Source: Pirellulales bacterium (GTDB lineage: Bacteria > Planctomycetota > Planctomycetia > Pirellulales > JADZDJ01). From it: 45,086 nucleotides of DNA. Under the pieces are notes generated by a model, which was not told the origin of the DNA, did no database searches, and saw only the letters and a program-made list of their open reading frames with translations. Shown piece after piece: positions 6,699 through 45,086 of the stretch (its first letter is position 1; each line of letters starts with the position of its first letter). The position numbers and the translations under genes are program-made. The stretch spans positions 1-45,086 of the forward strand of contig JADZDJ010000282.1 of NCBI GenBank assembly GCA_020851115.1, written 5' to 3'.

Positions 6699-6713
6699 AT
6701 TATTCAGAATAAT
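6699..6713. promoter_or_regulatory. AT-rich perfect inverted repeat upstream of the IclR gene
   Basis: ATTATT (6699-6704), CAG, AATAAT (6708-6713) form a perfect 15-nt palindrome-like site ending 12 nt before the preferred start of the regulator at 6726. The position suits autoregulation. The short AT-rich leader shows no Shine-Dalgarno sequence. Confidence 0.45.
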
Positions 6714-6725
6714 ATATTTACTATT

Positions 6726-7484
6726 ATGGAATCTTCAATTTTGGTCAAGGCCTTTGCGCTGCTCGAAGCGACCGCTGAGCGGCCTTCGACCAAATCTCTC
6801 GGAGATTTGGCATCAACCGTTGGGCTGACTAAATCGACAGCGCATCGGATCTTAAGAACGCTCAGAGCGTTAGGCTACGTCGAGCGCTTGCGCGGCGGCC
6901 AGTATCGGCAAACCGGACAAGTGCTTCGATTGGTCGCCGGCGCGGATGAACGTCGTCTGATCCAGGCGAGCGATGCGCTGCTGAGTCAACTTCATGCATC
7001 GACCCGAGAGACGGTCAATCTCGGCGTGCTACGTCAAGGGAATGTCGTATATGTGAAGGTCCTGGAAAGCCCGTTGCCGCTACGGCGCGTGGTCGAGCCC
7101 AATTCCACCGATCCGTTCTATTCGACAGCGCTGGGTCGAGCAATCGTGGCTCACTTACCGATCGAACAGCGCGAGCTCCTCTTGAGCAGCGTCCAGCTCG
7201 TGAAGCATACACCGGCGACAGTTACCGATACCGACACGTTACAAGCGATTCTGGATCAAGTTTACCAGCAGGGGTATTCCCTTGAACAAGACCAGACCGA
7301 TTTGGGAGTCACCTGCATCGGTGCGGCGATATTTCAAGCACACCTGCCGATCGCCGCAGTCAGCCTAAGTATTCCGACTGCCCGTTTCAGCCTGGAGTAC
7401 GAGATGCAACTCGTTTCCGCCGTCCGCTCGACGGCAAGCCAAATCACTCGCCAATTGGCGAACCATCCGGAGCCGGCTTCATGA
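6726..7484 (+). CDS. IclR family transcriptional regulator
   Basis: An IclR-type regulator of 252 residues with an N-terminal winged helix-turn-helix (about 8-65; SLGDLASTVGLTKSTAHRI) and a C-terminal effector-binding domain (about 80-245) containing the usual FYSTALGRAIVA and a DQTDLGVTCIGAAIF stretch. I choose ATG 6726; a TTG at 6690 would add twelve residues and run through the palindrome at 6699-6713. The gene is divergent from the ridA operon and overlaps the RraA-like gene by ATGA. The arrangement is that of a local regulator sensing a small acid derived from the pathway and controlling both divergent units. Confidence 0.88.
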   Translation: MESSILVKAFALLEATAERPSTKSLGDLASTVGLTKSTAHRILRTLRALGYVERLRGGQYRQTGQVLRLVAGADERRLIQASDALLSQLHASTRETVNLGVLRQGNVVYVKVLESPLPLRRVVEPNSTDPFYSTALGRAIVAHLPIEQRELLLSSVQLVKHTPATVTDTDTLQAILDQVYQQGYSLEQDQTDLGVTCIGAAIFQAHLPIAAVSLSIPTARFSLEYEMQLVSAVRSTASQITRQLANHPEPAS

Positions 7485-8149
7485 CCGATAACGCTCGCGA
7501 ACCGATTACTTTGGAAATGATGCGGTGCTCGCTGTATTCCGCCGTTGTGTGCGATGCGCTCGATGCCGTCGGCCGACGAAACCAATCGCCGCGCTGCCTG
7601 CTTCACCCGCTGACGGTCGACCGTTTGCTTGTTGGCCGCTGCAAGACGACGCTATGGGCCGATATGTCGCATCCCGATCCAGAACCCTACAAGCTGGAGC
7701 TAGAAGCCGTTGACGCCTGCAAACCCGACGAGGTGCTCATTGCCGCGGCCGGTGGCTCGATGCGATCGGGCATCTGGGGCGAACTGCTGTCGACTGCCGC
7801 ACGCGTTAGTGGCTGCGTCGGAGCGATCGTTGACGGCGCCGTGCGCGATGTTGCCAAAATGCGCGGGATGAGTTTCCCGGTTTTCGCCCGCGGTACGTGC
7901 GTTTACGACAGCCTTCACCGGCAGCGGGTGATCGATCTCGATGTGCCGGTGGAGATCGGCGGCATTTTGTTTTCGCCCGGCGATCTGGTATTTGCCGACC
8001 GCGACGGCATCGTGGTTGTACCGAGGGACGTTGAGGAAGAAGTCGTCCGTCGCGCCTGGCATAAGGTGCATGCTGAAAACGTCAGTCGTGACGCAATTCG
8101 CGCCGGAATGAAAGCCACGGCCGCGTATCAGAAGTTCGGAGTGCTGTAA
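7481..8149 (+). CDS. RraA-like protein / putative 2-oxo acid aldolase
   Basis: A RraA/menG-like family protein of 222 residues. The family core is clear: IWGELLSTAA, the AIVDGAVRDVAKMR segment and GDLVFADRDGIVVVP. Members include HMG/CHA aldolases, which split 4-hydroxy-4-methyl-2-oxoglutarate-type substrates with a divalent metal bound through the Arg-Asp region, and RNase E inhibitors. In aldolases the Arg-Asp pair is followed by x-x-Glu/Asp; here the residue is Lys (RDVAK), so aldolase activity is not certain; decarboxylase-type or other activity is possible. Start ATG 7481 overlaps the IclR stop. Context suggests the final C-C cleavage of a 2-oxo acid in the same pathway. Confidence 0.8.
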   Translation: MTDNAREPITLEMMRCSLYSAVVCDALDAVGRRNQSPRCLLHPLTVDRLLVGRCKTTLWADMSHPDPEPYKLELEAVDACKPDEVLIAAAGGSMRSGIWGELLSTAARVSGCVGAIVDGAVRDVAKMRGMSFPVFARGTCVYDSLHRQRVIDLDVPVEIGGILFSPGDLVFADRDGIVVVPRDVEEEVVRRAWHKVHAENVSRDAIRAGMKATAAYQKFGVL

Positions 8150-8353
8150 GGCCTTTTTGAAACTACTGCGCATCCACGCTCTCTGATCGCTTCTCGATTG
8201 CGGCAGGCGCAGTGTGGCGTCGGCCGCAGTTCATTTTGTTTGACACCCACTCTCAGGACGCCATCGTCAACGAGTGGGCAGGACGGCACCGCAAGCAGGC
8301 GACTTGACGCACGGTGCTGGCGATCGGTGCCAGTCAGGTACTCGGTGCGCGAC

Positions 8354-10297
8354 CTACGCCAACTTTAAGTCGCCCTTCCATCGTACAAAACCTTCGATGG
8401 CTTCGTACTCGGCTAGCCCGAGCTTATCGTAGAGCTTGGCGGTTTCAGCGTTGCGAGCCTCGGCGCGTTGCCAGAATTCACGGAGATCCACGCCGGGGAA
8501 GAGGGCGCGGTCTTTTTGGGATTGATGCTTGAAGATGGCATTACGTTTGCGTCGCGTTTCGTCGGGGCTGAGCGGAACGGCCATTTCGATTTCGTGCGGA
8601 TCCCACTCTTGCCACGCCCCGCGGTACAGCCAGACTTCGCAGCGATTGAACCAGGCCTCGTAGCGGACGCGGTCGCAGGCCATGAGGACGGCGCTGAGGC
8701 AAACGCGGTGAGTGCCGTGCGGGTCGGAGAGATCGCCGGCGACGTAGATTTGGTTCGGCTGAATTTGCTGCAGCAGATCGATCGTGAGCTTCACATCGGC
8801 GTCGCCGAGCGGCTTCTTTTTGACACGTCCAGTTTCGTAGAACGGCATGTCGAGAAAATGGAGTCGCTGCGGAGAGACGCCGCAACCGCGGCCGGCGGCG
8901 CGGGCTTCGCCGCGACGAATCAGGCCTTTGATTTTTTGCACTTCGTCGGTATCGACTTGGCCCGGCTGCTTGTTGCGAAGCGTTTCGAGAATTCCGTGTA
9001 AGATGCTGCGCGTGCGACCAGGCTCGATGCCGAATAGTTCATCGAACTCGCAGGCGAATTCGCTGAATCGAATCGCGTCGTCGTCGAAAACCGCGATATT
9101 GCCCGAGGTTTGGTAGGCGACATGGACTTCGTGTCCTTGGTCGACCAGGCGAATGAGTGTGCCGCCCATCGAGATCACGTCATCGTCGGGATGCGGTGAA
9201 AAGATCAGCACCCGCTTAGGAAAAATATCATCGTGCGGCTGCGGGCGGTCGCCGGGCTGTTTCGCATGCACCGGTTTGCCACCAGGCCAGCCGGTAATCG
9301 TCGATTGCAGTTGGCGGAAGACGTTCAGGTTGATGTCGTATGCGGGGCCGTGTTCGGCGACGAGATCTTGAAGGCCTTCTTCGTTGTAGTCTTCGTCGGT
9401 CAGTTTTAGCAGCGGCTTTTTCACGTGCAATGCGAGCGAAATCGCGGCCTTGCGAATGGCCGACTCGGTCCATTCGACTTGGCCGACGCGCCATGGCGTT
9501 TTACTTCGCGTGAGTTCAGCGGCGGCGGCTTCGTCGAGAAAGAATTCGGCGGCCTGGTGTTCCTGCAGGAACGTGGCGGGAATGGACGGCGAGATTGGAC
9601 CTTCGACGGTCTTGGCGATTACACCGGCCTTGTGCTCGCCGAAGGCAAGCAAGATTAGATGAGAGGCGTCGAGGATCGTGCCGACACCCATCGTGATGGC
9701 GCGGCGGGGAACAAAATCTTCTCCAAAGAAATCGCTCGACGCATCGCCACGGGTGACTTTGTCGAGGGAGATCAGGCGCGTACGGCTGCCACGGCCACTG
9801 CCAGGCTCGTTGAAGCCCACGTGCCCGGTGCGGCCGATGCCGAGGAGTTGAATGTCGATGCCGCCGACGGATGCGATTTTTTCTTCGTAGCGGCGGCAAA
9901 AGTCGTTTACCCGATCGGCTGGCAACGTGCCGTCGGGAATGTGGATATTCGCAGGGTCGATGTCGATCGCATCGAACAGATGCTCTTTCATGAACCGCAC
10001 ATAGCTTTGTAGTTCGTGCGGCTGCATCGGGTAATACTCGTCGAGATTGAAGGTGACGACATTGTGGAACGACAAGCCTTCTTCACGGTGCAATCGCACT
10101 AGCTCCGCATAAACCGCAATCGGCGTGCTACCTGTAGCCAGACCAAGGACCGCGCTGCGGCCATCCTCTTGGCGGCGACGAATCAGATCGGCAATTCGCT
10201 GGGCGGCGGCTTTGCTGGCCTCGCGCGGATGCGAAAAAACACAACACGGGATGTGTTCGATTTCGGAAAGGACAGTCGAAGTGGAGGGGCGGAGCAT
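8354..10297 (-). CDS. NagB-like glucosamine-6-phosphate deaminase fused to PIG-L/LmbE deacetylase
   Basis: A two-domain cytoplasmic protein of 647 residues. Residues about 15-290 are a NagB-type isomerase/deaminase (LATGSTP at 53-59, NLDEYY at 84-89, GIGRTGHVGFNEPGS from 153). Residues about 362-600 are a PIG-L/LmbE zinc deacetylase (SPHPDDD at 367-373; DPHGTH at 525-530). NagB converts glucosamine-6-phosphate to fructose-6-phosphate plus ammonia; LmbE proteins remove N-acetyl groups from N-acetylglucosamine-type substrates. Both in one chain suggest coupled deacetylation and deamination. In E. coli NagB the loop reads NDGH with catalytic Asp141; here it is RTGH with Thr157, which I recall as usual for the long NagB-LmbE form. 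It stands alone, in opposite orientation to both neighbours. Confidence 0.9.
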   Translation of the reverse strand: MLRPSTSTVLSEIEHIPCCVFSHPREASKAAAQRIADLIRRRQEDGRSAVLGLATGSTPIAVYAELVRLHREEGLSFHNVVTFNLDEYYPMQPHELQSYVRFMKEHLFDAIDIDPANIHIPDGTLPADRVNDFCRRYEEKIASVGGIDIQLLGIGRTGHVGFNEPGSGRGSRTRLISLDKVTRGDASSDFFGEDFVPRRAITMGVGTILDASHLILLAFGEHKAGVIAKTVEGPISPSIPATFLQEHQAAEFFLDEAAAAELTRSKTPWRVGQVEWTESAIRKAAISLALHVKKPLLKLTDEDYNEEGLQDLVAEHGPAYDINLNVFRQLQSTITGWPGGKPVHAKQPGDRPQPHDDIFPKRVLIFSPHPDDDVISMGGTLIRLVDQGHEVHVAYQTSGNIAVFDDDAIRFSEFACEFDELFGIEPGRTRSILHGILETLRNKQPGQVDTDEVQKIKGLIRRGEARAAGRGCGVSPQRLHFLDMPFYETGRVKKKPLGDADVKLTIDLLQQIQPNQIYVAGDLSDPHGTHRVCLSAVLMACDRVRYEAWFNRCEVWLYRGAWQEWDPHEIEMAVPLSPDETRRKRNAIFKHQSQKDRALFPGVDLREFWQRAEARNAETAKLYDKLGLAEYEAIEGFVRWKGDLKLA

Positions 10298-37700: not shown

Positions 37701-39110
37701 CTATTTCAAGCTTTCATCTTCCGCGGCATCCGAGGCTTGCGCCAAACCGAGCTGCACCATCCTGCGATAGAGCCGAGGCCGGGTTAGGCCAAGCAGCTTG
37801 GCCGCTTGCGTCTTGTTGCCTTTCGCCTGCTTCATCGCTCGCTCGATGTAATCGGTTTCGATCCGGGCGAGAGACCGCTCCAAATCGATCGGCTCGACCG
37901 GATTGCGTGGGAATCTGGCTGCTTCCGCAGCCAGGCGAAGTATTTTTGGCAAATCGGCCGCGATGATTTCGCAGCCTTCGGCCGCGGCAAATGCCTCGCG
38001 CACGATGCCGGCCAACTCGTCGATTTCACCGGGCCAATCGTAGGCCACTAGTTTGTCCATCGCCTCGGTGGAAAAGCCGCGCAGCTGCTTCGACTCACTA
38101 TCTGCGTTACAGTCTTCCAACAATATTTGTGCCACGAGCGGAATATCGTCGCGCCGCGACGATAGTGGGGCGAGTTCGATCACTACCGTGCTCAAGAGCA
38201 TCGCCAGGTCGCGACGAAGCAATCCTTGATCGACCAACGACGACTGCGGCAGCTTCGAAGTGGCGATGATCCGAATGTTTCTCGGTCCTGCCGCCAACCA
38301 ATGAGCCACTTCCGCTTGCACCTCGGCCGGCATCATTTGCACCTCGGCCAGCAGAAGCGTCGCCGGCGGCCCATCGGTCGCGGTGGCATGCTTTTTCGAG
38401 AGCGCGCTCAAGGTCGAAAGCAGTACCTCGCCCGGTAGTACGGCACATGATATCGGTGCGAGACTTCCAATCGGCGGGGATTGGGCGTAATGGATCGTGC
38501 TGGCGACATGCTGTTTGCCGCTCCCAGCAGGACCGACGACGAGCACGGTCGCATTGCAGCTAGCCGCCAATTCGATTTGCATCCGCACTCGTTGCATCGC
38601 CGGCGTCTTTCCCGCCAGTCGTTCCAGCCGATGTCGCCCGACCATCGCCGCACGAAACTTGCTGACGACCTGATGCAGCCGCGCCGCCTCGTCGGCGTCC
38701 GTTGCCTCCGCGGGCAAGCTATCGCCAGCGTTTTCAGGCAGATCCATGAGATCAACAATCACCAGCGCACCGACAATGTTACCATCGTCGCTCGCCAGTG
38801 GAATGAATTCTGCGTGTCGCCGTTGGTTGGTCCCGGATGCGTCGTGAATTGATAGCTCCGCGAACGTTCGCTTCCCATGAAACACCTCCGGCGGCGGACA
38901 AATTGAGTCGGCTGCGGCTGTCAACGGATCGGCATCTCCCGACCGATAACGGCATATCCGCCCCACGATTTCCTTGGGATCGACGCCAAGCCAATTCGCA
39001 CAGGCCCGATTGACGAACGCGAGTTGCCGGTTTTCGGCGACGAAATAGACCGGCGACTCCACGTGATGCAGCAGACGCAAGAACTCCTGGGCAGATCGCG
39101 GACTGGGCAT
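37701..39110 (-). CDS. PAS-AAA-Fis regulator, degenerate sigma-54 activator type
   Basis: A 469-residue protein with an N-terminal PAS domain (about 8-60; VESPVYFVAENRQLAFVNRA), a second PAS-like or linker part to about 120, an AAA+ domain (about 165-400) and a Fis-type helix-turn-helix (KGNKTQAAKLLGLTRPRLYR). Walker A is present as GPAGSGKQ (193-200), but Walker B reads LLLAEVQ (252-258) without the Asp-Glu pair, and the GAFTGA loop for sigma-54 contact is absent. It therefore cannot be a normal sigma-54 activator; I infer a DNA-binding regulator with a nucleotide-binding but inactive AAA module. It is divergent from the Ser/Thr kinase gene. Confidence 0.8.
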   Translation of the reverse strand: MPSPRSAQEFLRLLHHVESPVYFVAENRQLAFVNRACANWLGVDPKEIVGRICRYRSGDADPLTAAADSICPPPEVFHGKRTFAELSIHDASGTNQRRHAEFIPLASDDGNIVGALVIVDLMDLPENAGDSLPAEATDADEAARLHQVVSKFRAAMVGRHRLERLAGKTPAMQRVRMQIELAASCNATVLVVGPAGSGKQHVASTIHYAQSPPIGSLAPISCAVLPGEVLLSTLSALSKKHATATDGPPATLLLAEVQMMPAEVQAEVAHWLAAGPRNIRIIATSKLPQSSLVDQGLLRRDLAMLLSTVVIELAPLSSRRDDIPLVAQILLEDCNADSESKQLRGFSTEAMDKLVAYDWPGEIDELAGIVREAFAAAEGCEIIAADLPKILRLAAEAARFPRNPVEPIDLERSLARIETDYIERAMKQAKGNKTQAAKLLGLTRPRLYRRMVQLGLAQASDAAEDESLK

Positions 39111-39323
39111 GAACGACTTTCTGAGGGTCTAAAGAACGATGGGGCGGCGGTGAAAATTTGATCGGTGATATGCTTTCAGTGTAACCTTCGCACTCTGCTG
39201 GAAGTATATCTTTCTCGTGGGGCAGGCCTTCTTGATTGCCGAATACGCGATCTTTGGCAGGCTGGAATGTCTGCTCCAGAGCGCTCCGTTGTCAATCTTC
39301 TGCCCGGCGGCGATACTGTATTC

Positions 39324-40979
39324 ATGAGCCATTCCGCCCCCATGTCTACCGGCAACGGGCCTGCCGACGCAACAGGTCTCGACCTTGATCTTTCCGGGCG
39401 GCAACTGGGGGACTATCGGTTGCTGCGTCGGCTTGGCCGCGGCGCGATGGCGGATGTCTATCTGGCCGAGCAAGGTTCGCTTCGTCGACAAGTGGCCTTC
39501 AAAGTCCTGAAACGCGAATTGGCGGCCGACGAACTCTACGTCCGCCGCTTTCATGGTGAAGCGCAAGCGGCGGCCGCGCTGGTGCATGCCAACATCGTGC
39601 AAATTTACGAAGTCGGCAATATCGAGGGGATCCATTACATTGCACAGGAATATGTCGAAGGACAAAACCTGTCGCAACTGATTGCCCGGCACGGCCCGCC
39701 CGACATTCGGCTAGCGCTGGCCGTGATGCGGCAGGTCACTGCGGCACTGTGCAAGGCGGCCGAGCGCGGCATCGTCCACCGCGACATTAAGCCCGAAAAC
39801 ATCATGCTCGGTCGCTCGGGAGAAGTAAAAGTCGCTGACTTCGGACTGGCTCGCATCACTGCGGGAGACGACACGGTGAAGCTGACCCAGGTCGGCATCA
39901 CCATGGGCACCCCGTTGTATATGAGCCCAGAACAAGTCGAGAACCGTCCACTCGATTCGCGCAGCGATCTCTATTCGCTCGGCGTGACATGTTTCCATAT
40001 GCTGGCTGGCCAACCGCCGTTTCGTGGCGACACGGCTCTGAGCGTGGCCTTGCAACATGTGCGCACGCAACCCGAGCGACTTGAAAACCTACGTCCCGAT
40101 CTGCCGCCAGCGCTGAGCCGAATCATTCACCAGTTGCTGGTGAAGGATCCTGCCGAACGGTTTTCCACCCCCCGGGAATTGCTCAAAGAGCTGCGCTCAC
40201 TGCAAATAGACGGCATCGAGCAGTCGTGGCCCGCGGAGATGGACGAAGTCAACGGCACGGAAATCGCCTCGCTGCTGGCCCTGCGCGGCGAAGCCACGCA
40301 GCGGTTGCAAAATTTAATGAAAACTCAATCGCTGGCCACGCGAGGAAAGCGGCGGCGGATGGGGTACGCCGCAGCGCTAGTGATCGGCGCCATGTTGCTC
40401 GGCGCTGGCGCTGCGTGGGCTACGCGCGAACGGTATTTGCTCGATGTGCCTGCCGCGGAATTACCCAAAGTGGCTGTCCAAAAAACGGCCGAAGAGCAGT
40501 ATTATTTGGCCGAGTACAGCAATACATTAGCGGCTTGGAATGCGGTGGTAGAAAATTTTCCAACCGAGACTCGCTGGGTGTGGCGCGCCAAAGAAGAACT
40601 CGTCAAGATTTTTCTACCCACCGACATGAAGCTCGCAAAGCCCTTGCTCGACGAACTCGCCGAGGCGACCGATTCGAGTCGCCAGTGGGAAAATCAGTTT
40701 CGCGCTTTCTCGGCGGCGGGGCTGGCGTTTTACTACGCCTTTTCTCGTGAAAAGAATCCAGAACAAAGCGCCAAACAACTCGATCAACTCCGTTCGCTGG
40801 CCGGAGGCTTGAATCCTTCCAAGGTTCAACGCGTGCTTGAAGACCGACAGATGGAACAACTCGTCTACGCCGTCATTCAATTGAATCGGCAGACGACGGA
40901 CGAGAACAAGAAGGATTGGGATAACTGGCTCAACCAGATGCGCGAAGAAAATGAAACTCCCGTCGGCGAGGCGCGATAA
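39324..40979 (+). CDS. Membrane-anchored Ser/Thr protein kinase (PknB type)
   Basis: A Hanks-type kinase of 551 residues. Kinase domain about 29-300: glycine loop LGRGAMADVY, VAFKVLK with the ATP lysine, HRDIKPEN (152-159), DFG at 172-174, GTPLYMSPEQ and SDLYSLGV. One transmembrane helix follows (about 347-368, VIGAMLLGAGAAWA), then a C-terminal helical, TPR-like part outside the membrane (AEEQYYLAEYSNTLAAWNAV). This is the usual layout of planctomycete kinases. ATG 39324 is preferred; ATG 39267 is possible. It is divergent from the PAS-AAA-Fis gene. Confidence 0.93.
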   Translation: MSHSAPMSTGNGPADATGLDLDLSGRQLGDYRLLRRLGRGAMADVYLAEQGSLRRQVAFKVLKRELAADELYVRRFHGEAQAAAALVHANIVQIYEVGNIEGIHYIAQEYVEGQNLSQLIARHGPPDIRLALAVMRQVTAALCKAAERGIVHRDIKPENIMLGRSGEVKVADFGLARITAGDDTVKLTQVGITMGTPLYMSPEQVENRPLDSRSDLYSLGVTCFHMLAGQPPFRGDTALSVALQHVRTQPERLENLRPDLPPALSRIIHQLLVKDPAERFSTPRELLKELRSLQIDGIEQSWPAEMDEVNGTEIASLLALRGEATQRLQNLMKTQSLATRGKRRRMGYAAALVIGAMLLGAGAAWATRERYLLDVPAAELPKVAVQKTAEEQYYLAEYSNTLAAWNAVVENFPTETRWVWRAKEELVKIFLPTDMKLAKPLLDELAEATDSSRQWENQFRAFSAAGLAFYYAFSREKNPEQSAKQLDQLRSLAGGLNPSKVQRVLEDRQMEQLVYAVIQLNRQTTDENKKDWDNWLNQMREENETPVGEAR

Positions 40980-41119: not shown

Positions 41120-42412
41120 ATGCCTCAGCGTCGTAATATGGTCGTGGCCCAAAGTGGCGGGCCTAGTCCGGTCATCAACAACAGCTTGCGCGGCATCATT
41201 GAAACGTCGCGGCAAATGTCGGAAATTGGCATCGTCTACGGCGCGCGACACGGCATCGAAGGTGTGTTGAAGGAGGAACTCCTCAATCTATCGGCGCAAT
41301 CAGCCGAGGAAGTTGCACTGCTGCGGTACACGCCTGCCGCTGGCTCGATTGGCACCTGCCGATATAAGTTAAAGCCGACTCAAACCGAAGACTTCACGCG
41401 GGCGATCGATGTCATGAAAGCACACGACATCGGCTATTTTCTTTACATTGGTGGAAACGATTCGATGGACACCGCCCATAAGATCGCTGCGATGGCGCGC
41501 GAGCGTGGGCTGGACTTGATTGCCGTTGGTGTGCCCAAGACGATCGATAATGACGTGGGAGACAGCGAATTCAAGCTCGTCGATCACACTCCCGGCTACG
41601 GCAGCACCGCGAAGTATTGGCTGCATATGGTTCAATACGCCAATGAAGAGAACGCCGGAAGTTGTCCGGCCGATCCGGTGCTGGTGATGCAGGCGATGGG
41701 GCGCAAAATCGGCTATATTCCTGCTGCGGCACGATTGGCGGATCCTGGCCGCGAGTTGCCGCTGCAGATTTATTTGGCCGAAAGCCCCTGTTCGCTCGAG
41801 CAACTGGCCGACAACGTAAATGCACAATTGAAGAAAGTCGGCCGCTGCCTGGTCGTCATCAGCGAAGGCTTCGACGTGGGCGGAGTCGGGGAAGTGAAGG
41901 ATTCGTTCGGCCACACCATGTTCAGTTCCAGCCAGATGACGGTAGCGCAAGTCGTCGTGAATTACTTAAACAAGGTCGGATTGGCGGCGAAGGGAGCGGC
42001 CCGCGGCAATGTGCCGGGGACCGATCAGCGCCACGCGATGGCCTACGCCTCGACGGTCGATCTGGAAGAAGCTTACCGCAGCGGGCAAATGTCGGCCCTG
42101 CTGGCCGCACGCGGCGAAGGAGGCTACATGTCCACCATCCTCCGCACGCCGGGGCCGATCTACGCGGCGAAGTACGACAAAGTGCCACTGGAAAAAGTCG
42201 CCGCGGCCGACCGGTCGTTCCCGAAACAATGGATTGCCGCCAACGGCTACGACGTGACCGACGATTTCGCCCGCTACGCCAAGCCGCTCGTCGGCGAAGA
42301 CATGGTGACGCTGCCGATGATCGACGGCCGGCAGCGGATGACGCGGTTCGAGCCGATTTATGCGGAACAGAAGTTGCCGAAGTATGTTCCACAAGGCGAC
42401 CGCAAGACGTAA
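41120..42412 (+). CDS. PPi-dependent 6-phosphofructokinase
   Basis: A phosphofructokinase-family protein of 430 residues. Phosphoryl-donor markers favour pyrophosphate: the GGNDS motif (111-115) has Asp114 where ATP-type enzymes have Gly, and PKTIDND (139-145) has Lys140 where they have Gly. MGRKIGYIPAAARL, PLQIYLAESP and ISEGFDVGG are typical of the long PPi type. It interconverts fructose-6-phosphate and fructose-1,6-bisphosphate reversibly in the cytoplasm. It is followed after 35 nt by a HAD phosphatase gene on the same strand. Confidence 0.9.
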   Translation: MPQRRNMVVAQSGGPSPVINNSLRGIIETSRQMSEIGIVYGARHGIEGVLKEELLNLSAQSAEEVALLRYTPAAGSIGTCRYKLKPTQTEDFTRAIDVMKAHDIGYFLYIGGNDSMDTAHKIAAMARERGLDLIAVGVPKTIDNDVGDSEFKLVDHTPGYGSTAKYWLHMVQYANEENAGSCPADPVLVMQAMGRKIGYIPAAARLADPGRELPLQIYLAESPCSLEQLADNVNAQLKKVGRCLVVISEGFDVGGVGEVKDSFGHTMFSSSQMTVAQVVVNYLNKVGLAAKGAARGNVPGTDQRHAMAYASTVDLEEAYRSGQMSALLAARGEGGYMSTILRTPGPIYAAKYDKVPLEKVAAADRSFPKQWIAANGYDVTDDFARYAKPLVGEDMVTLPMIDGRQRMTRFEPIYAEQKLPKYVPQGDRKT

Positions 42413-42447: not shown

Positions 42448-43311
42448 ATGTTCGACTTTGAACCCACACACGCGTTTCTCGTCGGCATCGACAGCGACGG
42501 CTGCGCGTTCGACACGATGGAGCTGAAGCACAAAGAGTGCTTCATTCCGGCGATCATCAATCACTATGGTCTGCAAGGCGTGAGCAAGTATGCCCGCGAG
42601 GCGGCCGAATTTGTGAATTTGTATTCTAAAAGCCGCGGCATCAATCGATTTCCGGCGCTCATCGAAACCCTCGAATGGCTGCAACGGCGGCCGGAAGTAA
42701 CCGCCCGCAGTGTCAAGATTACGATGCCGCAGGGGTTGATCGAGTGGATCAAAGTGGAAACGAAGCTGGCGAATCCGGCACTCGGGAAAGCCGTTGACGC
42801 TGGCGGCCATGCCGATCTGAAGCAAGCGCTGGCCTGGAGCAAAGACGTGAACGAAGCGGTCGAGCGAATCGTACGCTGGGTGCCGCCATTCCCGTTTTTA
42901 CGAGAAAGCCTGGAGAAGCTGAAAACGAAGGCCGACATGCTTGTCGTCTCCGCCACTCCCACCGAGGCGCTTAAGCGAGAATGGGCGGAACATGATTTGG
43001 CAAAGTATGTCGTTGGCATCTGCGGCCAAGAAGTTGGCACCAAGAAGGAGTTGCTCGGGGTTTCGAAAAAGTACAAACCAGGACATTCGTTGATGATCGG
43101 CGATGCCCCTGGCGATTACAAAGCCGCGCAGGCCAATAACACCTTGTTCTATCCGATCAATCCGGGCGCGGAGGAAGCAAGTTGGAAGCGATTCCACGAC
43201 GAAGCCATTGACCGCTTTCTGAGCGGCAAGTTCGCCGGCGATTATCAACAGAAATTGCTCGCCGAATTCGATTCGTATCTGCCAGAGCGCCCGCCGTGGG
43301 AACGGAAGTAA
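42448..43311 (+). CDS. HAD-superfamily phosphatase-like protein
   Basis: A 287-residue HAD-fold protein. Motif I is GIDSDG (Asp15 and Asp17), motif II the Ser of VVSATPTEA, motif III a Lys in EVGTKKE, and motif IV IGDAPGDYKAA. The cap domain between motif I and II is large and helical (about 25-165). Substrate unknown; coexpression with the PPi-phosphofructokinase suggests a sugar phosphate. The end of the protein (PPWERK) is intact. Expected cytoplasmic. Confidence 0.85.
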   Translation: MFDFEPTHAFLVGIDSDGCAFDTMELKHKECFIPAIINHYGLQGVSKYAREAAEFVNLYSKSRGINRFPALIETLEWLQRRPEVTARSVKITMPQGLIEWIKVETKLANPALGKAVDAGGHADLKQALAWSKDVNEAVERIVRWVPPFPFLRESLEKLKTKADMLVVSATPTEALKREWAEHDLAKYVVGICGQEVGTKKELLGVSKKYKPGHSLMIGDAPGDYKAAQANNTLFYPINPGAEEASWKRFHDEAIDRFLSGKFAGDYQQKLLAEFDSYLPERPPWERK

Positions 43312-43346: not shown

Positions 43347-44999
43347 ATGGACAACACTACGATTCTCTTTAGCGCGATTCAACGGACATACCGCAATGCT
43401 GTTGTCGAGCTTATCAGAAAGACGTTCACAAATGAATTTGGAGAGAAAGGAATCGAGGAAGTAAGAAAACCGTTCTTAAAGAGAGATGAAGAAACGAAGA
43501 AAACATATTGGGAGGCAATTAAGGAAGCCGCAACCGAACGTAGGTCCGGCGGTACAGAAGAGCTGTCTACGCCGATTCGTGACGAATATGAGCTCCTCGG
43601 CGTAGAGCATTTCTTTTCGGTATTTGAGCCAAGTTTTGATTTGCTTTGTCCCACTCATGCTGCCAAGCCCAAGAAGGAGCGAAATCAGGCTCGGCAAACG
43701 CTGACCACATGGATGAAGCAAATCAAGAATGTGCGAGACCCGGTCTCGCATCCCGTTACGGATGATATCAATTACGACGACTCGGCGAATGTTCTCTATT
43801 GTGCAAGAAAGGTCTTGGATTTCTGTGAGTTGCCAGAGGCATCGGCACAGATACTGCGATTGCAAGCGACGCTGCTCGGCGGCATTACGCAGGATTCTCA
43901 GAGAATACTAGCGGTTTTGCCGCCGCCAGATGAAGTTGTAATGGATTTTGTTGGTCGCCATCGCGAACTAGCACTCTTGAGCGATTGGCTATCTGATAAA
44001 CAAGCGCGACGATGGGCACTATCTGGTGAAGGTGGGAAGGGTAAATCGGCGATTGCGTACGCGTTCGCTCGATCAGTAGCATCGCGTGATGACCATGGTC
44101 TTGAATCCATTATTTGGATGTCAGCAAAGCGTCGCAGGTTTATTGAAGGACAGACAGTTCTGGTGGATAGACCTGATTTCTTTGATAAGGCTACCGCAGT
44201 ATGCGCAATTCTCCGCGCATTTGGAGATGCGATTAGCGAGGACCCATTAGAGAACGAGCATGCTGCATTGTCGCTTCTGTCGGATTTTCCATCGCTGCTT
44301 GTCATCGATGATATGGACACGGTTCAGGATGATGGGGAAGACGCAATTCAGTTTCTTGTGATGGCGATGCCGGAAATTACAAGATCAAGAATCTTGTTGA
44401 CATCGAGGCGCGCAATGTTTGGGATGTCAAATGTGACGACTCAAATTGCCGGGCTATCTGCGGCTGACGGTGAATCGTTTATCAAATCAAGATGCGATCT
44501 TATGGGCATTTCGCCTGTGCCGGTTTTAAAATTGAAGGATAAGTTACTGGACGTCACTGATTCGTCACCGCTTTTTATCGAGGATTTGCTGCGACTTACT
44601 CAGTCCGGGCTTGACATCGAGAACGCAATTGGACTCTGGGCTGAGAAACGGGGAAGTGAGGCAAGGAAATATGCTATGCAGCGAGAGTACGAACAGCTTG
44701 CCGACGAAGGAAAGCAAGTGTTACTAGCACTTAGTTTGCAAGGTCCATGCAAATTTGACGATCTGTGCCGCGGATTGGATTGGCCGAATGAGCGATTGTT
44801 GGACGCGATACAGCAGTTGCGCAAGATGTTCCTGATGCCGCAATTCGACGGGACAAAGAGTCTCTTGGCGCTTAACAATAATATTGGGACTCTAGTTCGA
44901 GAGGTTTTCAAGGATTCGGAAGCTTATAGAAGGACTTATCGCACAATGCGTGCCGCCTCCGGCCCTGTCCGCGATTTTGTGCTCGGGGGTTTTTGCTAG
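43347..44999 (+). CDS. HEPN/NB-ARC STAND NTPase, C-terminus cut by an insertion sequence
   Basis: A 550-residue frame. The N-terminal 190 residues look like an Swt1-type HEPN domain with the R-x4-H pair at Arg130-His135 (IKNVRDPVSHPV), the signature of HEPN ribonucleases. From about 200 follows an NB-ARC type STAND NTPase: Walker A GEGGKGKS (227-234), Walker B LLVIDDMD (317-324), an ILLTSRRAM sensor and a winged-helix part to about 500. The sensor repeats expected after it are missing: the last about 13 codons (from about 44960) belong to the end of an IS256-like element. The gene is visibly richer in A/T than its neighbours. The make-up is that of abortive-infection defence proteins. An AAAGGGG site precedes ATG 43347. 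Confidence 0.85.
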   Translation: MDNTTILFSAIQRTYRNAVVELIRKTFTNEFGEKGIEEVRKPFLKRDEETKKTYWEAIKEAATERRSGGTEELSTPIRDEYELLGVEHFFSVFEPSFDLLCPTHAAKPKKERNQARQTLTTWMKQIKNVRDPVSHPVTDDINYDDSANVLYCARKVLDFCELPEASAQILRLQATLLGGITQDSQRILAVLPPPDEVVMDFVGRHRELALLSDWLSDKQARRWALSGEGGKGKSAIAYAFARSVASRDDHGLESIIWMSAKRRRFIEGQTVLVDRPDFFDKATAVCAILRAFGDAISEDPLENEHAALSLLSDFPSLLVIDDMDTVQDDGEDAIQFLVMAMPEITRSRILLTSRRAMFGMSNVTTQIAGLSAADGESFIKSRCDLMGISPVPVLKLKDKLLDVTDSSPLFIEDLLRLTQSGLDIENAIGLWAEKRGSEARKYAMQREYEQLADEGKQVLLALSLQGPCKFDDLCRGLDWPNERLLDAIQQLRKMFLMPQFDGTKSLLALNNNIGTLVREVFKDSEAYRRTYRTMRAASGPVRDFVLGGFC

Positions 45000-45086
45000 C
45001 GTAGGTTCTTGGGCATTCGTTCCTGGAACATGATGGCGAAGTGGTTCAGGGCTTCCTTCCAGTTGTGGATCGCTTTGGTCCAACGC
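44959..45086 (-). mobile_element. Insertion sequence end (IS256/mutator-like), partial
   Basis: The element enters from the right edge; only its transposase 3' end and terminal repeat lie in the window. The terminus reads from about 44961 as GGCCCTGTCCGCGATTTTGTG, inferred as the inverted repeat. The exact boundary cannot be fixed without the other end. It has interrupted the STAND gene. Confidence 0.6.
44996..45085 (-). CDS. Transposase C-terminal fragment (IS256/mutator family-like)
   Basis: The minus frame reads RWTKAIHNWKEALNHFAIMF, then QERMPKNLR and a stop (TAG at 44996-44998). The W-x-x-A-I-x-x-W-x-x-x-L-x-x-x-A-I-x-F pattern is what I recall for the C-terminus of IS256-type transposases. 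The rest of the gene lies beyond the window. The stop codon lies about 35 nt inside the presumed IS end. Confidence 0.6.
   Translation of the reverse strand, partial: RWTKAIHNWKEALNHFAIMFQERMPKNLR

Follow-up and report, generated by a model that had tools for sequence, protein, structure and literature searches.

The gene that starts at position 43347 of the window is, with a probability of about 0.8, a horizontally acquired predicted defence gene of the STAND (NLR-like) type, whose TPR sensor was cut off by an IS256-family element and which was most likely inactivated as a result. The window is the whole stretch of DNA that was analysed (45,086 nucleotides). It corresponds to an entire contig, C282, of an assembly fragmented into 304 contigs, and the contig end falls 126 bp inside the IS256-family element; there is consequently no assembled sequence to its right.

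Interrupted reading frame and IS256-family element

An ORF at 43347-44999 on the forward strand encodes 550 aa. The features at the break are:

43347..44960, forward strand: 5′ part (538 codons) of the IS-interrupted HEPN-STAND-TPR gene; homologues are 36-40% identical over residues 1-536 (one 29-31%)
44953..44960, no strand: 8-bp target-site duplication CCGCCTCC, left copy; the right copy is at C107:127-134
44961..44999, forward strand: ORF tail encoded by the insertion sequence (IS) (GPVRDFVLGGFC, stop)
44961..45086, no strand: left end of the IS256-family element, first 126 bp, up to the contig end; a genome repeat
44996..45086, reverse strand: 3′ end of the IS transposase gene (Transposase_mut)

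The IS left end begins with GGCCCTGTCC, and the stop codon TAG at 44997-44999 lies 39 nt into the IS. The 550-aa ORF therefore comprises 538 native codons and 12 IS-encoded codons; the uninterrupted gene would give a 762-aa product (538 + 224 codons). A preliminary description of the window had reported an R-x4-H motif at residues 130-135, Walker A at 227-234, Walker B at 317-324, a stop 39 nt past an apparent IS end, and the 3′ end of a mutator-type transposase gene on the opposite strand. The three motifs occur at exactly these positions, the IS left end runs from 44961 with the TAG ending at 44999, and a Transposase_mut (IS256 family) C-terminus can be read from the opposite strand. Homologues of about 540-550 residues ending like this frame, which would have spoken for a natural short form, were not what we found; intact full-length homologues are 758-790 aa long.

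Copies of the window's final 126 bp occur, with 96-100% identity, on contigs C281, C255, C238, C153 and C293 of the same genome, and C170 holds a 42-bp piece of the IS left end. Together with C282, these contigs carry the seven IS left ends of the genome (G000); the seven right ends are on C107, C70, C105, C124, C246, C259 and C276. Many of these ends are located near contig ends, and no full-length IS copy was found assembled in this genome. On C170 (L007:1504-1662), only about 40 bp of the left end are followed by different sequence, as in a truncated or recombined copy. The terminal inverted repeats of the left end (C282) and the right end (C107) are identical at 10/10 terminal bases. The C-terminal part of Transposase_mut, the inverted repeats and the 8-bp duplication place the element, by its sequence features, in the IS256 family.

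Second half of the gene on contig C107

The two gene halves were searched separately and were never joined into one sequence. A profile of homologue C-termini hit, at E 4e-50, the beginning of C107, another contig of the genome that the window comes from. C107 starts with 126 bp of the IS right end, terminating ...GGACAGGGCC, which is the reverse complement of GGCCCTGTCC. The same 8 bp, CCGCCTCC, follow, and then an in-frame continuation of 224 codons of TPR repeats. C107 thus supplied the second IS end, the duplicated target site and the onward repeat frame, and the earlier proposal that the sensor repeats were split off by transposition agrees with the TPR half lying behind the IS right end and the duplication.

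Since each contig breaks off 126 bp into a multi-copy repeat and the genome is fragmented (304 contigs), the split could be an assembly artefact in which two unrelated contigs share one terminal repeat. The right IS end recurs in other contigs, each match stopping at query base 126, a regularity that counts in favour of the insertion. Among the 49 combinations of seven left and seven right ends, the 8-bp duplication matches for the C282/C107 pair only. The reading frame also continues across the junction, the C-terminal profile starts where the N-terminal part stops, and the genes that flank the two halves, HAD on C282 and gnd on C107, adjoin in relatives, which argues that the two contigs flank one locus. 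An artefact is therefore extremely improbable, and we infer that C282 and C107 are joined through the IS as one locus.

The clean 8-bp duplication and the otherwise intact halves would also suit a reversible on/off switch, in which some cells of the population regain the gene by precise loss of the IS, an event known for IS256. The assembly shows one match, ending at the IS, and no uninterrupted copy, although assemblies hide minority variants. We consider such a switch quite unlikely.

Flanking genes and gain of the gene

Two genes to the left of the insertion locus were named by sequence reading:

41120..42412, forward strand: 6-phosphofructokinase-like (pfk-like) gene to the left of the insertion locus; precedes HAD in most relatives
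42448..43311, forward strand: HAD-type phosphatase-like gene; gnd is close behind it in relatives

The HAD-type gene is present in single copies in relatives, with 61-85% identity. In 17 of the 18 loci examined in same-order relatives, gnd (6-phosphogluconate dehydrogenase) is the next gene after HAD, and pfk lies before HAD in most of them. The HAD-gnd distance is small: HAD and gnd nearly touch in G002 and lie about 150 bp apart in G001. In the window's genome, HAD is at the right of C282 and gnd is at the left of C107, right behind the second gene half. The adjacency in relatives places the gain of the gene between HAD and gnd. The gene has a G+C content of 47-50%, vs 55-62% for pfk/HAD, and 146 related genomes yielded no close homologue, only a single weak partial match. 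Low G+C and absence from relatives argue for horizontal gain followed by IS insertion; the insertion is placed after the gain because both halves lack other damage. On sequence evidence, these findings point to horizontal acquisition of the gene and subsequent IS insertion. Comparison thus reveals the sequence of events: first a transfer into a site between housekeeping genes (pfk-HAD and gnd), later the breakage.

The immediate neighbours of the window copy are metabolic genes, with no defence genes among them, which counts against a role in defence. Further to the left, at 37701-40979, is a Sigma-54-activator-like ORF (PAS-like, AAA, Fis-type end), with a Ser/Thr kinase-like ORF next to it on the other strand; both were named from translation only.

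N-terminal HEPN domain

Two features were assigned in the N-terminal part:

43347..43880, forward strand: predicted Swt1-like HEPN domain, about residues 1-178, from hhalign against Pfam HEPN_Swt1 members and VIA structural matches
43734..43751, forward strand: R130-D-P-V-S-H135, predicted HEPN catalytic motif, from conservation in 10 homologues

An R-x4-H pattern occurs by chance in 20% of shuffles of the 198-aa N-terminus and is weak evidence by itself; here it is more than chance, because every one of the 10 homologues keeps it. Its R, D and H and the P behind them are invariant in 10/10, and the spacing is x4 in seven and x5 in three (Chloroflexota). The latter three (L068, L069, L072) have RDPVLGHP or RDPVIGHP (R-x5-H), one residue longer than the RDPxSHP found elsewhere.

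A Pfam search with the window protein alone gave no HEPN match at the N-terminus. Two homologues, L073 (E 9e-5) and L067 (E 1e-3), matched HEPN_Swt1 weakly, below the Pfam cut-off. When the N-termini of the 10 homologues were compared with 5 true PF18731 members by hhalign, the probability was 89.8% (E 1.8e-6, 116 columns), and the alignment put R-D-x-x-x-H of the homologues on R-N-x-x-x-H of the PF18731 members. With a profile of the 10 N-termini, the two PF18731 members nearest to them scored better than any of 500 shuffles (1.5e-5 and 1.4e-4); the remaining three of the five were at shuffle level.

The AlphaFold model of residues 1-198 had pLDDT 83 and pTM 0.79. The top three VIA matches of this model were all HEPN proteins: the C-terminal domain of yeast Swt1 (4pqz, Z 7.7, rmsd 3.2, 126 aligned), AbiF (8vz6, Z 6.8) and Csm6 (6tug, Z 5.9), all with Z <13, which is not firm for helical bundles and may reflect a common arrangement. 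Foldseek alone gave no structural match for the model at E<0.001 (best E 0.5; 4pqz at rank 10). The Swt1-like HEPN proposed in the preliminary description is thus supported by profile-profile comparison and, less firmly, by structure comparison, but not by a Pfam match of the window protein alone; alignments and, to a lesser degree, models support assignment of the N-terminus as a Swt1-like HEPN domain.

NTPase and TPR domains

The P-loop motifs of the central part are:

44025..44048, forward strand: Walker A GEGGKGKS (227-234); G229, G230, G232 and K233 invariant in 58 relatives
44295..44318, forward strand: Walker B LLVIDDMD (317-324); D321 and D324 invariant in 58 relatives

The sensor arginine R354 and P408, the conserved proline of a GxP-like motif, were likewise invariant in the 58 relatives. 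The NB-ARC/NTPase scores of the window protein alone were below Pfam cut-offs; NB-ARC was found at E<=0.01 in 56/58 relatives. The full-length model of homologue L064, from Corallococcus exercitus (pLDDT 82, pTM 0.42), matched the STAND-TPR protein 6mfv (E 9e-10), Apaf-1 and CED-4. TPR_14 was found in homologues, and TPR folds cover residues 538-758 of L064. By these motifs and models, the central part is a STAND NTPase of AP-ATPase/NB-ARC type with a winged helix, and the C-terminus a TPR array.

Homologues and broken copies

A scan of genome contigs with the window protein as single query gave zero relatives, and tblastn of plasmids with the N-terminus alone gave no match, nor did phages. 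When an alignment of plasmid homologues was used, 57 loci were found. Nine of them match the window protein from residue 1-3 past residue 520, and L070, the tenth, carries a frameshift. The hosts of the homologues are Myxococcota, Acidobacteriota, Chloroflexota, Dormibacterota and Actinomycetota. Clustering of N-termini on the homologous chassis gave 46 AlbA_2-like, 10 HEPN, 1 CHAT (L071) and 1 PIN (L074) proteins; these counts, obtained from a single seeded scan, should not be read as frequencies. The NTPase tree groups the HEPN, CHAT and PIN proteins in one clade of 12 (support 100/99) spanning several phyla. The CHAT protease-like (L071:177-2543) and PIN RNase-like (L074:4353-6746) N-termini are placed on a shared NTPase-TPR chassis, as in effector exchange within one clade.

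Some HEPN homologues have defence genes nearby. In L065 a type IIG restriction-methylation gene ends 5-17 bp upstream of the homologue, in L075 the neighbour is a type I restriction subunit, and in L067 a CBASS cyclase. The remaining HEPN homologues have ordinary neighbours.

Other copies are also damaged. In L069 (Dehalococcoidia), an IS5-type element (DDE_Tnp_1 + DUF772, 6712-7909) with inverted ends and a CTAG duplication sits behind the NTPase and divides the homologue, whose TPR half resumes at about 7904-8547. An AlbA_2-STAND homologue of Rhizobium sp. N621 (L043:3236-8490) is split by annotated IS66 genes, with the C-terminal half beyond. L039 and L070 are frameshifted. Broken copies are therefore not rare. 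The one homologue annotated as 548 aa that turned up, on an R. ruizarguesonis plasmid, is frameshifted, and its C-terminal half follows in another frame.

Repeats were detached, and the effector-NTPase frame left, by independent insertions in the window's genome (IS256-type), in a Dehalococcoidia homologue (IS5-type) and in the Rhizobium AlbA_2 homologue (IS66). That IS insertion between NTPase and repeats is a recurrent route to sensor loss or exchange in STAND defence proteins is an unlikely generalisation. An insertion "hot spot" at the NTPase-TPR border was rejected: there are three cases only, over about 100 residues, and homologues whose P-loop is intact are more readily picked up by the scan.

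Proposed function and fate

Avs, bNACHT and Apaf-1-type proteins respond when their repeats recognise a ligand; the NTPase then forms oligomers, and the N-terminal effector becomes active (PMC10907252). The present gene would combine in one frame an N-terminal HEPN RNase effector, a central AP-ATPase/NB-ARC switch with winged helix, and a C-terminal TPR sensor. Intact homologues most likely act in a similar way to Avs and bNACHT: a phage or stress ligand would be bound by the TPR sensor; the ATP-bound NTPases would then oligomerise and bring the HEPN domains together as dimers, leading to RNA cleavage and a growth stop. In the window copy, the IS256-family insertion after codon 538, with its 8-bp duplication, separates the TPR sensor (224 codons, C107) from the HEPN-NTPase (538 + 12 IS codons). 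RNase activity, phage sensing and loss of function are thus predicted properties; in the literature we found no experiment on any family member.

Because its ligand sensor is removed, the gene is most likely inactivated. The truncated HEPN-NTPase might instead be a sensorless, constitutively active or deregulated toxin, tolerated for example through low expression. The whole of HEPN, NTPase and winged helix is present, in frame, before the break, and in Apaf-1 and some other STAND proteins loss of the repeats relieves inhibition. However, a constitutive RNase switch should be lethal or be mutated fast, yet neither a stop nor a frameshift disrupts what is left of the frame. The insertions in L069 and L043 also leave an effector-NTPase without repeats, which suggests that such products are harmless. 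We therefore regard an active toxin as unlikely. An RNase acting without restraint should not be tolerated, which is why inactivation is rated most likely; the locus is probably an inactivated copy.

Comparison with known systems

The family is compact: a homologous NTPase-repeat chassis carries HEPN, AlbA_2, CHAT or PIN, which makes it a useful set for examining how effectors are swapped among bacterial NLR-like proteins. Its closest counterparts by organisation have been described. The SLFN_AlbA_2 - NB-ARC proteins of Pseudomonadota (46/58 relatives) have a homologous NTPase, with about 20-25% identity overall; some have a TPR-like C-terminus, and one is beside restriction genes. They have AlbA_2 where the present family has HEPN, and the two form separate clades in the NTPase tree.

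Antiviral STAND proteins with the order effector-NTPase-sensor are established (PMC10907252; PMC13092281). Avs and bNACHT share with the present family the order effector, STAND NTPase and repeat sensor, with N-terminal effectors swapped on a common chassis; unlike bNACHT, the present NTPase is nearer to AP-ATPase/NB-ARC than to NACHT by Pfam score. Neither the window protein nor any of six homologues matched an Avs model of PADLOC (2023 copy). The hits that PADLOC gave for the window protein, Cas13b (E 0.013) and SspC (E 0.05), were rejected as chance-level. Inactivation by IS insertion is documented for cas genes (PMC10359306); in those cases a defence gene was likewise inactivated by an IS, but the genes are CRISPR genes and the IS families are others.

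The 2013 HEPN survey (Anantharaman et al., PMC3710099) mentions bacterial HEPN-STAND proteins in general and describes Swt1-like HEPN domains, mostly with an active motif, fused to STAND-ATPase, TPR and S1 (Npun_F6454, MED222_16016, Desac_1927). Like the present family, these proteins combine Swt1-like HEPN, STAND NTPase and TPR in one protein. Unlike them, the present 758-790-aa homologues showed no S1/cold-shock domain, and the window copy is split by an IS; the likeness described here is one of architecture. Because this architecture, the antiviral STAND order and IS-inactivated defence genes were all described before, the protein belongs to a known kind: the HEPN-STAND-TPR architecture has been on record since 2013, and the window copy is a further example of it, split by an IS.
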